Shown piece after piece: positions 7,871 to 59,388 of a stretch of DNA of 64,000 nt. Position 1 is the stretch's first letter. Each line of letters starts with the position of its first letter. The DNA comes from Lentibacillus amyloliquefaciens. GTDB taxonomy: Bacteria > Bacillota > Bacilli > Bacillales > Amphibacillaceae. The DNA is taken from assembly GCF_001307805.1 (NCBI RefSeq), contig NZ_CP013862.1, positions 1,426,001 to 1,490,000 on the forward strand. Reading direction: 5' to 3'. The notes below the pieces were generated by a model. That model saw only the letters and a list, made by a program, of their open reading frames with translations. It made no database searches and was not told where the DNA came from. The position numbers and the translations under genes are program-made.

Positions 7871-7989
7871 TTGCCTGGCGGCGTCTTACTCTTGCAGGGG
7901 TTAAACCCCAACTACCATCAGCGCTGGAGAGCTTAACTGCTGTGTTCGGCATGGGAACAGGTGTGACCTCTCCGCTATCGCTACCAGAC
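7871..7989 (-). rRNA. rrf: 5S ribosomal RNA
   Basis: The minus strand carries the 5S core GAGGTCACACCTGTTCCCAT, the conserved CCGAACAC and the closing CGCCGCCAGGCAA, about 119 nt in all. Ends are estimated from terminal-stem pairing and could be off by one or two bases. It is the last gene of the operon, with no tRNA gene between it and 23S. Confidence 0.93.
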
Positions 7990-8084
7990 TTTGTCATTTC
8001 TATCGTGCTGTCGTCTCTTCCGTTTTGACGGACAAGAATTATTATAGGCATTTTCACCAGAAAATGCAAGGGGTTTTGACAAAT

Positions 8085-8121
8085 TTGCACCCTGAAAACT
8101 AAATAAGAGCTTCATTCAACG
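8085..8121 (-). other. 23S processing stem, 3' arm
   Basis: The reverse complement of this stretch matches 11096-11134, upstream of 23S, apart from a few bases. The two arms flank 23S and would form the long duplex cut by Mini-III/RNase III-type enzymes. Confidence 0.75.
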
Positions 8122-8134
8122 TTTTTTGCGGGTT

Positions 8135-12776
<4,642 letters not shown>

Positions 12777-17062: not shown

Positions 17063-17282
17063 AGCTACTCATCCCCGATAAAAGGGACGAGAAGCTTATC
17101 TCCCGCGGTACCACCCAAATTAACACAACATGTGCTCACTTGTTTCCTTAACGCGGGTTTGACGGCAAAGACTACTGACGTTCATCTTTGCAACTTTAAG
17201 GTGAGTTCAAAAACGTCTCAGGAACAGTTTTCACCAGCCACTGCCTCGCTTCACCTGAGAAAAGTTAATTACTAATCCTTTT
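17063..17282 (-). promoter_or_regulatory. T-box riboswitch of leuS, specifier CUC (Leu)
   Basis: The minus strand carries the invariant T-box GGGTGGTACCGCGGGA (complement of 17101-17116), which pairs with the tRNA acceptor end. Upstream, the specifier region reads GAACTCACC with CTC (complement of 17203-17205), a leucine codon. Downstream is the terminator: AGCTTCTCGTCCC (complement of 17084-17096) pairs with GGGATGAGTAGCT (complement of 17063-17075), followed by seven T. Uncharged tRNA-Leu should favour the antiterminator. Confidence 0.93.
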
Positions 17283-17334
17283 CAATGTTATTGCTTAATA
17301 GAATTGTTCAAAAAAGGCGATAATTGTACAACGA

Positions 17335-23380: not shown

Positions 23381-23540
23381 AAAAACCTTCCCTGCATCAT
23401 GAGGAAAGGAATTCGTGGCCTTTCACTCTTATTGTTCAAGGACTGATCCTTGCACCAGATTAGCACCTTTTCACAAAACGTGATGGTTGCCGGGCTTCAT
23501 AGGGTCTGTCCCTCCGCCGACTCTGAATAAGAGAGTATCC
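23381..23540 (-). promoter_or_regulatory. SAM-I (S-box) riboswitch of metK
   Basis: The minus strand reads the S-box core GGCGGAGGGACAGACCCTATG (split GGCGGAGGGA/CAGACCCTATG), then GAAGCCCGGCAACCA and GGTGCTAA. The P1 helix is CTCTTATT (complement of 23526-23533) with AATAAGAG (complement of 23426-23433). Downstream the terminator pairs CCTTTCCT with AGGGAAGG (complement of 23386-23409), followed by TTTTTTG and more T. SAM binding should stabilise P1 and allow termination. Confidence 0.95.
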
Positions 23541-49578: not shown

Positions 49579-51702
<2,124 letters not shown>

Positions 51703-51722
51703 AAGCTATTGAATTGGTGACT

Positions 51723-56655: not shown

Positions 56656-57039
56656 GTCGATCTCCACCTAAAATCACACCCTCCTTAATTTTTTCCATTA
56701 TATTTAATAACGTGTGTCAACTCCAGTGGCTTTGAATGTTGCAACCTCTACTTGGGTACTCACATGTTACTAATCCGTAAAAGTTTGTCACATAACACCC
56801 TTTCTTTACCAGTCAAGTCAGAATTTGCATGTTTTTATTCTTTGGAAATCATTCCCTTGATCATCGCAAACATAGATCAATAGAATGCTGAGAGCGACTC
56901 AAGCGGAGCAACCATTTTTTGGGTCATGTCAAATCATATTACATTCATTAAACTCTTAGTTGTGAACTTTTCAATTAGGAGCATTCCTGTAATGAAAAAA
57001 TTTGAGGAGAAATCGGTGTAAATGACAAGTGCATAAAAA
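56656..57039. other. Gene-free stretch left of the IS element
   Basis: About 384 bases without a supported gene. It contains an inverted repeat, TTGATC (56857-56862) and GATCAA (56875-56880), and a small AGGA/TCCT hairpin near 56980. Part of it may belong to the left end of the IS110 element, whose border I cannot place. Confidence 0.5.
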
Positions 57040-57105
57040 AAGTCCCCTTGGTACGATAGAGAGTGTCATCGCGGTGACCTCGAATTTAGTACCGAAGGAG
57101 GACTT
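57040..57105 (+). promoter_or_regulatory. Leader hairpin hiding the transposase ribosome-binding site
   Basis: The outer stem has 15 pairs with two single-base bulges: AAGTCC, CCTT and GGTAC (57040-57054) pair with GTACC, AAGG and GGACTT (57089-57105). An inner stem pairs GAG/GTCA (57061-57068) with TGAC/CTC (57075-57081). The Shine-Dalgarno sequence AAGGAGG (57095-57101) is inside the outer stem, so translation should be held back unless the stem opens. Confidence 0.7.
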
Positions 57106-57110
57106 CTACA

Positions 57111-58397
57111 ATGGATTTTACACAAAATAATCGATTAGCGCAAATCAACGAACAAACACTGATTATCGGGGTTGATATAGCGAAACGTAAACACGTGGCC
57201 CGTGCGATAGATGATCGGGGACGAGACCTCGTCAAACGACTGGTGTTCTCCAATTCGCTGCAAGGATTTACAGACCTCATCGAATGGGCTGAAAGCTTGT
57301 CCAATGAATACGAGCGCCCCAACATCATCATTGGAATGGAACCAACCGGTCACTACTGGCTGAATCTAGCCTATCACTTGAAAGCTCGGGCTATTCACGT
57401 CGTTGTCGTCAATCCGATGAAGGTCAAACGGTCCAAGGAAATGGATGATGATTCCCCGACTAAAAATGATACAAAAGATGCCAAAGTCATTGCCCAAATC
57501 ATACGTGATGGCCGTTATCATGAACCAACGTTACCGGAGGATGTGTACGCTGAATTGCGCGAAGGCATGAAACTCTATGACATGATCCAAGAGGATATGT
57601 CCTCGGTCAAAGCCCAAATGCATAATGCGCTTGATCGCTACTTTCCAGAGTTTCTCGATGTCTTTAAAGACTGGACCGGTAAAGCTGCCCTCCATCTACT
57701 GACGAGAGGCTATATGCCGGAAGATATTCGTGAAACGTCGGAAGACGATTTACTTTCAGACGTCAAACAGGCTGCCAAACGTGGGGTTGGCATCAAGCGC
57801 ATCCAGGCATTGAAACAGGCAGCTGAAGACAGTGTTGGCCTTACCGTGGGATTACGCATGGCACGTCAGGAAATTCACTATTTAATTGATCAGTATAAGG
57901 CTCTTGAAGAACGTCTTATCGCTCTTGAAGCACAACTCGAAAAACTTGTTCTTCACATACCCGGAGCTGATCAGATGATAGCGATCAAAGGCGTAAGTGC
58001 CATAACAGTGGCCGGTTTCTTCGCTGAAGTTGGTGATTTATCGAATTATCGGGATCCACGCCAAATCATTAAATTAGCGGGACTCAACTTAAAGCTGAAT
58101 CAATCAGGTCTGTTCAAAGGCCAAACGACGATCACCAAACGAGGACGAAAGAGGCTGCGAAGCTTACTTTATCAAGTGGCACGGCCATTATCCCTGCACA
58201 ATGAAGGGTTTAAGCAATTGCACCATTATTATCGTCATCGGTCCGATAATCCGCTGACAGGAAAACAATCGTTTGTCGCATTAAGCCGAAAACTCATCAA
58301 AATCTTTTATCTATTAGGGACACGGAAGTGTACGTTCAGTGAAGAGCGCATGATCCGTGACATCCCAATGATTTCGACATTACAGGAAGCCGCTTAA
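57111..58397 (+). CDS. IS110-family transposase (DEDD recombinase)
   Basis: A 428-residue transposase with an N-terminal RuvC-like DEDD domain: Asp22 in GVDIAKRKHVA, Glu77 in GMEPTGHYW, Asp120 and Asp123 in NDTKDAKVIA. The C-terminal transposase-20 (IS116/IS110/IS902) domain follows with IPGADQMIAIKGVSAIT and RQIIKLAGLNL. The gene appears intact. Members of this family are guided by an RNA made from the element's own non-coding end. ATG follows a GGAGG that is buried in a hairpin. Confidence 0.95.
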   Translation: MDFTQNNRLAQINEQTLIIGVDIAKRKHVARAIDDRGRDLVKRLVFSNSLQGFTDLIEWAESLSNEYERPNIIIGMEPTGHYWLNLAYHLKARAIHVVVVNPMKVKRSKEMDDDSPTKNDTKDAKVIAQIIRDGRYHEPTLPEDVYAELREGMKLYDMIQEDMSSVKAQMHNALDRYFPEFLDVFKDWTGKAALHLLTRGYMPEDIRETSEDDLLSDVKQAAKRGVGIKRIQALKQAAEDSVGLTVGLRMARQEIHYLIDQYKALEERLIALEAQLEKLVLHIPGADQMIAIKGVSAITVAGFFAEVGDLSNYRDPRQIIKLAGLNLKLNQSGLFKGQTTITKRGRKRLRSLLYQVARPLSLHNEGFKQLHHYYRHRSDNPLTGKQSFVALSRKLIKIFYLLGTRKCTFSEERMIRDIPMISTLQEAA

Positions 58398-58730
58398 CAA
58401 GACGTACAGCTATCGTTTTTGAGCCATCTTTTGACAATTGAAGCACGGATTAGCCGGTCGATATTTCATCCGTTAGGGCATAGACCCACCATAGGAGCAT
58501 TTCCGGCATCCACCATGGTCAGGTCGAACGAAGGAATTTGCGCGCATAGACGCCGAGAGACATGGGAGGGTCCACCGCCATGTAAACGTGGAGATCCAAG
58601 GTGCGATCATAAGATTGATTATCCATTTAATGGAAGTCATCCATTAATGCCTATTCGGCTTAACCCGCCAATTCCATATTTATCCTTAAATGTCATTAAA
58701 AGGATTTAAGACCGCTATGGACTTCAATTG
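58398..58730 (+). ncRNA. Candidate bridge/seek RNA region at the right end of the IS110 element
   Basis: About 330 bases after the transposase stop, with no coding frame that carries a ribosome-binding site. It shows several self-pairing segments: ACGGAT (58445-58450) with ATCCGT (58468-58473) around a 17-base loop; ACATGG with CCATGT near 58560-58583 around a 12-base loop; GTCCAC with GTGGA near 58570-58592; AATGGA with TCCATT near 58629-58645. This resembles the guide-RNA-bearing end of IS1111-type relatives, but that is inference; the upstream side could instead carry it. Confidence 0.4.
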
Positions 58731-58800
58731 ATCAAAAGAAATTTGGAGAAAAACGAAGCATTTCTAAGAAAATATTAATTTATTGAGGGAGGTCAATCAA

Positions 58801-59388
58801 ATGAACAAATTAAATAGATTCTCAATTATAGCAATACTTTTCGGTCTGATTGCATTCCCGGCAGGAGCAGCCGCACAAACTTATTCAGTACAGCAAGGCG
58901 ATTCGTTTTACACGATAGCCAAAAATAACAACCTGACGTTAGGAAACTTGCAAATCGCAAACGAACGCTCAGGCAGTCAGCTAAAAGCGGGCGAAACCAT
59001 CACGATTCCTGATGCCGTTTCCACTGAGGGCAAGGAATTGATGGCCAAGCTCGTTCATGCCGAAGCTAAAGGTGAACCATATGAAGGTAAAGTAGCCGTT
59101 GCGACAGTCGTTTTAAATCGCGTCGATTCAAGCGAATTTCCTGATACAATAAAAGATGTCATCTATGAAAAAACCGATGGTGTCTATGCTTTTTCACCGG
59201 TTAAAAACGGCGCAATCAATAGTGGCTATGACGCCAGCGACATGAAAGCAGTCAATGAAGCGATTGCCTTCAGAGGTCAGGGAATGGGCTCATTATATTT
59301 CTATAACCCGGACAAAGTCGAAAGCGATAATTGGATTTTCTCACGTGAAACGATTACAAAGATTGGTGATCACCGATTTGCAAAATAG
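58801..59388 (+). CDS. LysM-SleB cell-wall hydrolase
   Basis: A 195-residue secreted protein from the ATG at 58801 (GAGGGAGG upstream). It has a signal peptide ending near FPAGAAAQ, one LysM domain (YSVQQGDSFYTIAKNNNL, about residues 30-70) for binding peptidoglycan, and a SleB/CwlJ hydrolase_2 domain from LMAKLVHAEAKGEPYEGK on, with its conserved Glu and the AFSPVKNGAIN block. Relatives act in spore cortex lysis or wall turnover. It lies directly after the IS element. Confidence 0.9.
   Translation: MNKLNRFSIIAILFGLIAFPAGAAAQTYSVQQGDSFYTIAKNNNLTLGNLQIANERSGSQLKAGETITIPDAVSTEGKELMAKLVHAEAKGEPYEGKVAVATVVLNRVDSSEFPDTIKDVIYEKTDGVYAFSPVKNGAINSGYDASDMKAVNEAIAFRGQGMGSLYFYNPDKVESDNWIFSRETITKIGDHRFAK

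Follow-up and report, generated by a model that had tools for sequence, protein, structure and literature searches.

An IS110-family element of Lentibacillus amyloliquefaciens is probably an RNA-guided insertion sequence, with a predicted bridge/seek RNA, a Shine-Dalgarno (SD) sequence as its address, a right end that rebuilds this SD at insertion, and a leader that may insulate the transposase gene. The complete element occupies positions 56982-58791 (plus strand) of the window, the 64,000-nucleotide stretch of DNA that was analysed. It measures 1,810 bp, including one copy of a 2-bp core, AG. Its borders, the RNA fold, the covariation of the left guide with its targets and the SD context of the insertion were all read from sequence comparisons, as presented below.

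The borders were determined from the common ends of relatives and from uninterrupted sites. Nearly all relatives with readable ends start with AG|CATTCC and finish with ..GAGGGAG|. Two loci, L041 and L117, had one extra left base (left junction GGAGCCATTCC), and at several relative loci the right-end word was not found. In Halobacillus hunanensis, three copies diverge beyond the common element ends. Eight sequences served as uninterrupted counterparts for three insertion loci, and all their junctions were inside an SD. None of the eight sites had a gap or a target duplication at the junction, as expected for scarless insertion at a short core. The uninterrupted site of the hydrolase gene hit in the window is present in four genomes of the same genus (e.g. 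TTTTCAGCTAGGAGGTCAACAAAATG in G007). The two further loci have two uninterrupted counterparts each, one of these being a second flank copy within the host's own genome; at that third locus the empty-site alignment extends just 67 or 44 bases leftward. An earlier, sequence-only reading had placed the element at 57040-58730, with 330 non-coding bases on the right, and had suggested aligning copies to find the borders. The alignment moved the start to 56982 and the end to 58791, and the long right non-coding end, all of it element and not host DNA, measured 394 nt (58398-58791, plus strand).

The left copy of the core (56980-56981) closes the left target, ..AATTAGG AG, as revealed by the empty-site alignments and the junction table, and the right copy is found at 58790-58791. 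The left end, CATTCCTGTAAT..., has 129 nt including the leader (56982-57110) and is conserved in relatives. The insertion point, overlooked in the sequence-only reading, is the SD of a SleB/LysM-type gene on the same strand (58801-59388, with an ATG at 58801). Its product is a LysM/SleB-type cell-wall hydrolase, resembling SleB (NCBIfam) with a score below the family cut-off. The former AGGAGG now reads GGGAGG, and the rebuilt SD, GAGGGAGG (58785-58792), which includes the right core AG, ends 8 nt before the ATG. With GAGGGAG as its last bases, the right end leaves an SD-like sequence at the old spacing, and the gene is probably still translated. Two such elements are present in the host genome, their proteins having 100% and 81% identity with the query, along with two IS110 transposases that are more distant. 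Both elements are single and differ from each other (81%), and hence there is no sign of recent movement in this genome.

The transposase gene (57111-58397, plus strand) is an intact open reading frame for a 428-aa DEDD transposase/recombinase. It matched PF01548 and PF02371 over their cut-offs, in agreement with the earlier assignment to the IS110 family, and also NCBIfam NF033542, 'IS110 family RNA-guided transposase'. The nearest solved relatives were IS621 (E 1e-9) and ISCro4 (E 5.3e-9). The alignment to IS621 keeps the D, E, D..D and SG residues, which we take to be catalytic; the C-terminal stretch aligned weakly. In a plasmid collection, 1030 records had relatives, all with less than 60% identity.

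The right end contains a predicted bridge/seek RNA of ~171 nt (58440-58610, plus strand) with seven conserved helices, which matched its covariance model with 176 bits. The underlying alignment comprised 45 sequences, the window included, with 41-100% transposase identity. The structure was drawn by hand and has 29 pairs. Pairing was formed in 97.2% of the alignment cells, with 88% in the smallest helix. Changes on both sides were seen in 17 of the 29 pairs, with 111 two-sided cells compared with 31.9 in shuffled alignments. Sliding the structure by one to three columns lowered the pairing to 34-50%, a comparison in which the original position is favoured by having been derived from the same alignment. 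The count of further pair types is a weaker measure and gave 33 versus 29.0 in shuffles (11 of 500 as high). Folding of 58440-58610 as a single sequence showed no excess stability (z +0.22). The structured right end proposed by the sequence-only reading is thus supported by covariation and not by single-sequence stability. Its proposal of a bridge/seek RNA agrees with a conserved, covarying RNA whose loops match target and donor. This RNA lies in the right end and not on the leader side, which had been named as the other candidate location; the 129-nt left end holds just the leader. A 96-aa open reading frame at 58419-58709 overlaps the covarying RNA and for this reason was not taken as a gene.

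The covariance model matched 28 of 42 sources strongly, the most distant of these having 37% transposase identity, two weakly (L031 and L034) and 12 not at all. Four sources without a match have at least 37% identity: L012 and L109 both end at a contig edge; L014 and L018 have transposases of ~50% identity and room downstream, yet no RNA was matched by the model. In samples that included the own genome, matches were found in 36 of 200 genomes of the class (E 1e-10) and in 34 of 199 genomes of the phylum (E 1e-6). The two weak matches, L031:2710-2871 (minus strand, 19.3 bits) and L034:1299-1469 (plus strand, 14.0 bits), adjoin distant IS110 transposases, and their GGGACTYNGATCCCG-type stems are perhaps a diverged relative of the same RNA.

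The sequence-only reading had suggested that the RNA may be one not yet described for its subgroup. In line with this, the element had no Rfam match up to E 1, and no description of SD-addressed bridge RNAs or of the right-end RNA was found in searches of an open-access library. Most IS110 and IS1111 elements of ISfinder were given a predicted RNA in a published survey of bridge RNAs (PMC11208160, excerpts), and a relative may figure in its supplements.

Several further observations were made in and around the right end. The region between the RNA and the right end (58611-58780) is less conserved and also present in relatives. It has a short hairpin, CCATTTAATGG in the window and CCACTTTTTGG-like elsewhere, and a CCAAATTTATCC-like word in some relatives. 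In a Halobacillus element (L038), the last ~49 bases are duplicated, with the second GAGGGAG end before an ATG, and a G486 copy (L160) has a similar short repeat. Elsewhere in the window, Rfam matches were ordinary and all on the minus strand: an rRNA operon (7873-12775), a T-box leader (17080-17294), a SAM riboswitch (23426-23533) and a purine riboswitch (51618-51719).

The open sides of the first and second hairpin of the RNA form a target loop and a donor loop, respectively. On the 5' side of the target-binding loop, alignment places the right-target guide region, TCGATATTTCATCCGTTA (58458-58475). On its 3' side is the left-target guide (58488-58502), where ..TAGGAG (58492-58497) is identical to the window's target, TTAGGAG (left target plus core). 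The donor loop contains GAAGGAATTT on its 5' side (58530-58539), with AGGAAT complementing ATTCCT of the left end in nearly invariant columns. On its 3' side, GGGAG (58564-58568, invariant columns) equals the finish of the right end, GAGGGAG. Both donor guides show this fit to the element ends, with hardly any variation to test by covariation. We propose that the right end would be transcribed from the plus strand into the bridge/seek RNA and bound by the IS110-type recombinase. The 3' side of the target loop would copy the left target and core (NAAGG-AG), its 5' side would complement the bases to the right of the core, and the donor loop would fit both element ends.

The relatives were grouped into clade A, to which the window's element belongs, clade B (palindrome-guided), clade S (deeper SD-guided) and clade C. 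In the first set of loci, after dropping 11 repeated ones, both guides were parsed in 91 elements (L041 and L117 remained unparsed), giving 56 distinct pairs with core AG (23 in A, 28 in B, four in S, one in C). Over the last five left positions, left guide and left target were identical in 248 of 280 comparisons, with 129 ± 9 in shuffled pairings, none of 5000 being as high. The identity was also found within clade A (101/115 versus 72.7 ± 4.6) and within clade B (125/140 versus 98.5 ± 3.1), in both cases with none of 2000 shuffles as high. With four pairs, clade S was not significant (17/20 versus 14.2; 136 of 2000 as high).

A second set was taken from 91 listed RNA matches, 60 of which were fetched, from 12 genomes with at least three matches each. 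It excluded G370 (four loci, one of which, L207, is the same as L108 of the first set), a repeated flank (L202) and a locus without the right-end word (L192). Five G549 loci were included by their right-end word, and 54 loci were scored. The left guide was readable in 37, giving 36 distinct pairs from nine genomes. Here, 158 of 180 positions were identical (shuffled 113 ± 5.3; none of 5000 as high). The sequence-only reading had suggested a search for guide-loop complementarity; its outcome is a left guide with the letters of the left target flank and a donor loop in agreement with both ends of the element.

The right guide followed its target less closely. In clade B the 5' side of the loop complements the bases to the right of the core (CAACTAA versus TTAGTTG), and the signal was weak but present (237/376 versus 220 ± 6.0 shuffled; seven of 2000 as high, at the best offset tried). 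Across clades a clear signal was obtained, again at the best offset tried. Within the window's clade, individual targets were not tracked (75/160 versus 72.1 by chance; 499 of 2000 as high), and the window's own right target matches its right guide poorly. The duplicated right end of L038 was also omitted from this test.

In the window's clade, most left guides are AAGGAG or close to it. As the usual address of the clade is an SD, the element would enter the 5' leaders of genes in sense orientation. To count insertions before genes, we required an open reading frame of at least 40 codons with its start 3-16 nt after the core. Among unique right flanks, a start codon followed in 15 of 22 cases in clade A, 3/9 in S, 2/5 in C and 2/48 in B. 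Sorted by guide type, 18 of 28 first-set elements with SD-type guides preceded a start codon (15 ATG), versus five of 56 with other guides (0 ATG). Among the new loci the counts were 33/40 (25 ATG) and 2/14 (2 ATG), respectively (Fisher, p 9.5e-6 for any start and p 0.004 for ATG alone), with the loci not fully independent, since copies of one element within one genome share the guide. Random positions were before a start codon in 12.6% of cases (5.7% ATG). In the first set, SD-guided relatives outside the window's clade were less often before a start codon, as in clade S. Among the clade A misses, several kinds were seen. The guides of L008 and L054 are not SD-like. L038, with the second copy of its duplicated right end before the ATG, was scored positive only in the count by guide type. 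In L006 the AAGGAG insertion is apparently inside a gene, as its flanks read through as one open frame. L036, L121 and L122 have no long open reading frame at the scored distance.

These counts describe where the insertions are found, and they could also arise by accident, if AAGGAG is a common word with SDs as its commonest sites. In the rest of the window, a start codon follows 15 of 31 AAGGAG and six of nine AAGGAGG sites, so that the address alone would bring many insertions into SDs, and some copies, such as L006, are inside genes. On the other side, deep branches of the transposase tree, and not just the window's clade, have guides of the SD type, and in the target sense the right guide is rich in purines, like the spacer between SD and start codon, though neither proves selection for SDs. 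We regard an accidental preference as a serious possibility, a little short of an even one, and it concerns selection, not mechanism. Our claim is that the guide reads an SD, with no claim that the machinery senses translation. A single pattern search, run on part of the loci, gave no element inserted into its own SD.

The target of clade B elements (L058, L060, L066-L068, L086, L096 and others; ~50-55% identity) is a palindrome-like word, TTGAACTAACGGGGCAG / GTTAGTTGAACAAG, and several of the insertions directly follow a terminator-like T-run. The palindrome seems to be a REP-like target in Bacillus and Paenibacillus and worth naming.

The leader of the element forms a hairpin (57040-57105, plus strand) with an outer stem of 15 pairs, the 3' arm of which contains the transposase SD, AAGGAGG (57095-57101). 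This stem, and the burial of the SD in it, had been noticed by the sequence-only reading. The RNA at 57037-57113 folds with -29.5 kcal/mol, compared with a shuffled mean of -15.25 (z -5.1; none of 200 as stable). Masking of the SD is widespread: at least three of four SD nucleotides were paired in 47 of 55 leaders, with a mean z of -4.8 (range -7.0 to -0.7). RNAalifold gave no consensus structure for all 55 leaders, probably through a loss of register of the 3' arm caused by gaps. The evidence was taken instead from the folds of single leaders and from two sub-alignments. The first had 14 compensatory cells versus 4.1 in shuffles; the second had 19 versus 11.2, with eight versus 6.2 pairs changed on both sides, a value matched in 62 of 500 shuffles. 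Covariation, which had been suggested as a check for both ends, is thus strong for the right-end RNA and modest for the leader. A lowering of transposase translation by the leader is plausible from these folds.

Promoters in the leaders were scanned with a sigma-A-like consensus of 12 positions, with the transcription start set 7 nt after the -10 box. Outside the window's clade, the predicted start was past the anti-SD arm in 39 of 39 leaders, and the promoter matched at least nine of 12 positions in 32 (shuffled mean best 4.3-5.1). The SD was freer in the transcript from the predicted promoter, with on average 2.07 versus 0.10 of four nucleotides free in the palindrome-side clade and 1.67 versus 0.89 in clade S. 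In these sister clades, a promoter whose spacer contains the 5' arm of the hairpin would start transcripts past this arm, with the SD freer, and the hairpin would bury the SD in transcripts coming from outside. The transposase would so be insulated from host read-through. The leader promoter is degenerate in the window's own clade, matching at least nine positions in one of 16 leaders (seven of 12 in the window), with the start past the arm in eight of 16. At the joined circle ends, where a promoter would form in the IS110/IS1111 life cycle, a simple consensus scan found no promoter with at least nine matches in 90 cases (mean best 7.4 versus 7.0 shuffled).

A regulated switch, for instance one bound by the recombinase, or an antisense terminator would also account for a hairpin at this place. 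The sequence of the inner hairpin is conserved beyond what masking of the SD needs. In 52 of 55 leaders, the initial 24 nt contain a run of at least four A near the foot of the stem, so the minus strand (57026-57110 in the window) reads as a hairpin followed by a T-run, like an intrinsic terminator. The promoter that an insulator needs is, as stated, degenerate in the window's clade. Pairing of the SD in most leaders and the position and strength of the promoter in the other clades argue against such a switch or terminator, which we consider possible but rather doubtful. The insulating leader that we prefer resembles the protection from read-through known for IS10 and IS50. Sense insertion into 5' leaders would make such a protection useful; the hairpin is also present in the clade that inserts beside terminator-like sequences.

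The guides have changed between close relatives. Within clade A, close transposases have different guides (AAAA, AGAA, AAGG) and the targets follow the guide. In a genome with the guide TTTGT, four of four distinct left targets end with TTTGT; in a genome with the guide ATACG, the four targets agree partly. These targets, together with the location of the segment in an internal loop that is conserved and, as in bridge RNAs, faces a second guide, make it very improbable that the recombinase protein itself prefers AAGGAG-like DNA and that the RNA segment is an old duplicate of the element end, even though the segment also repeats the first left-end bases (..GGAGCAT) in most members.

A transposase tree of 75 rows was built by a quick search; its outgroup and some of its deep rows have long branches. 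Guide labels were set by hand for L014, L016, L017, L019, L023 and L041. These were verified against the RNA except for L014, L041 being verified via L117, the same element; L023 was too short for the tree. Guides of the SD type occur in the window's clade and on several deep branches; the palindrome guides fall within a single group of 34 rows, of which one has no label. An SD-type ancestor that was re-addressed later is the simplest reading, although unproven.

Among the closest known systems are IS621 and ISCro4. Shared with them are the DEDD RuvC and C-terminal domains, with detectable sequence similarity, a dinucleotide core common to donor and target, and an RNA that has both kinds of loop, for target and for donor (PMC11208160, excerpts). 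The RNA of the element is in the right end, unlike the IS110 group sensu stricto, with the bridge RNA in a long left end, and the right guide precedes the left guide. The transposase, with 428 aa, is longer than the IS621 chain (328 aa). Read on the transposase strand, the core is AG; the IS621 target has CT as written in the excerpts of PMC11208160.

Similarities to the IS1111 group (seekRNAs of ISEc11, ISPa11 and ISKpn4) are an RNA downstream of the transposase and a segment complementary to the top strand located 5' of one complementary to the bottom strand (PMC11187229, excerpts), with the top-strand match significant in clade B and not within the window's clade. IS1111 elements have subterminal inverted repeats of 7-17 bp. 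No such repeat was detected in the window's clade (22 elements, mean 5.45 versus 5.36 shuffled, z 0.1), which differs from IS1111 in this respect; the other relatives (68 elements) had z 1.0. At 428 aa, the transposase exceeds the 330-350 aa of IS1111 by ~80-100 aa. A long downstream non-coding region without a proper sTIR is shared with the 'green group' of IS110 (PMC11187229, Fig. 1b), compared by its text description only.

Targeting of an SD has a precedent in the IS110 family. IS900, from Mycobacterium avium subsp. paratuberculosis, inserts at the motif CATGNNNNNNTCTCCTT (PMC8141618, excerpts); in reverse, this motif resembles an SD that precedes a start codon. A 1997 paper cited there has the claim of SD targeting in its title (PMC8141618, excerpts). 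For IS900 the site is read in the opposite orientation, with the transposase gene pointing away from the host gene; its complementary strand carries the hed gene. The window's element was inserted in sense and rebuilds the SD. It combines an IS1111-like RNA position and guide order with a long IS110-type transposase, an SD address and SD restoration, and its clade lacks clear terminal repeats.

More broadly, we tentatively propose, with somewhat less than even confidence, a phylum-wide bridge-RNA family of Bacillota with an ancestral SD address. Its members would enter in sense ahead of almost any gene, rebuild the SD there and keep their own SD behind a hairpin that the promoter skips. Sister lineages would have been re-addressed to terminator-side palindromes or other words by a few guide bases. 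RNA-guided IS110 recombinases are candidate tools for programmable insertion, and this subfamily is a large natural data set of guide switching with targets following. It offers a natural solution to harmless insertion ahead of genes, and its leader gives a testable model for how activation by host transcription may be avoided.
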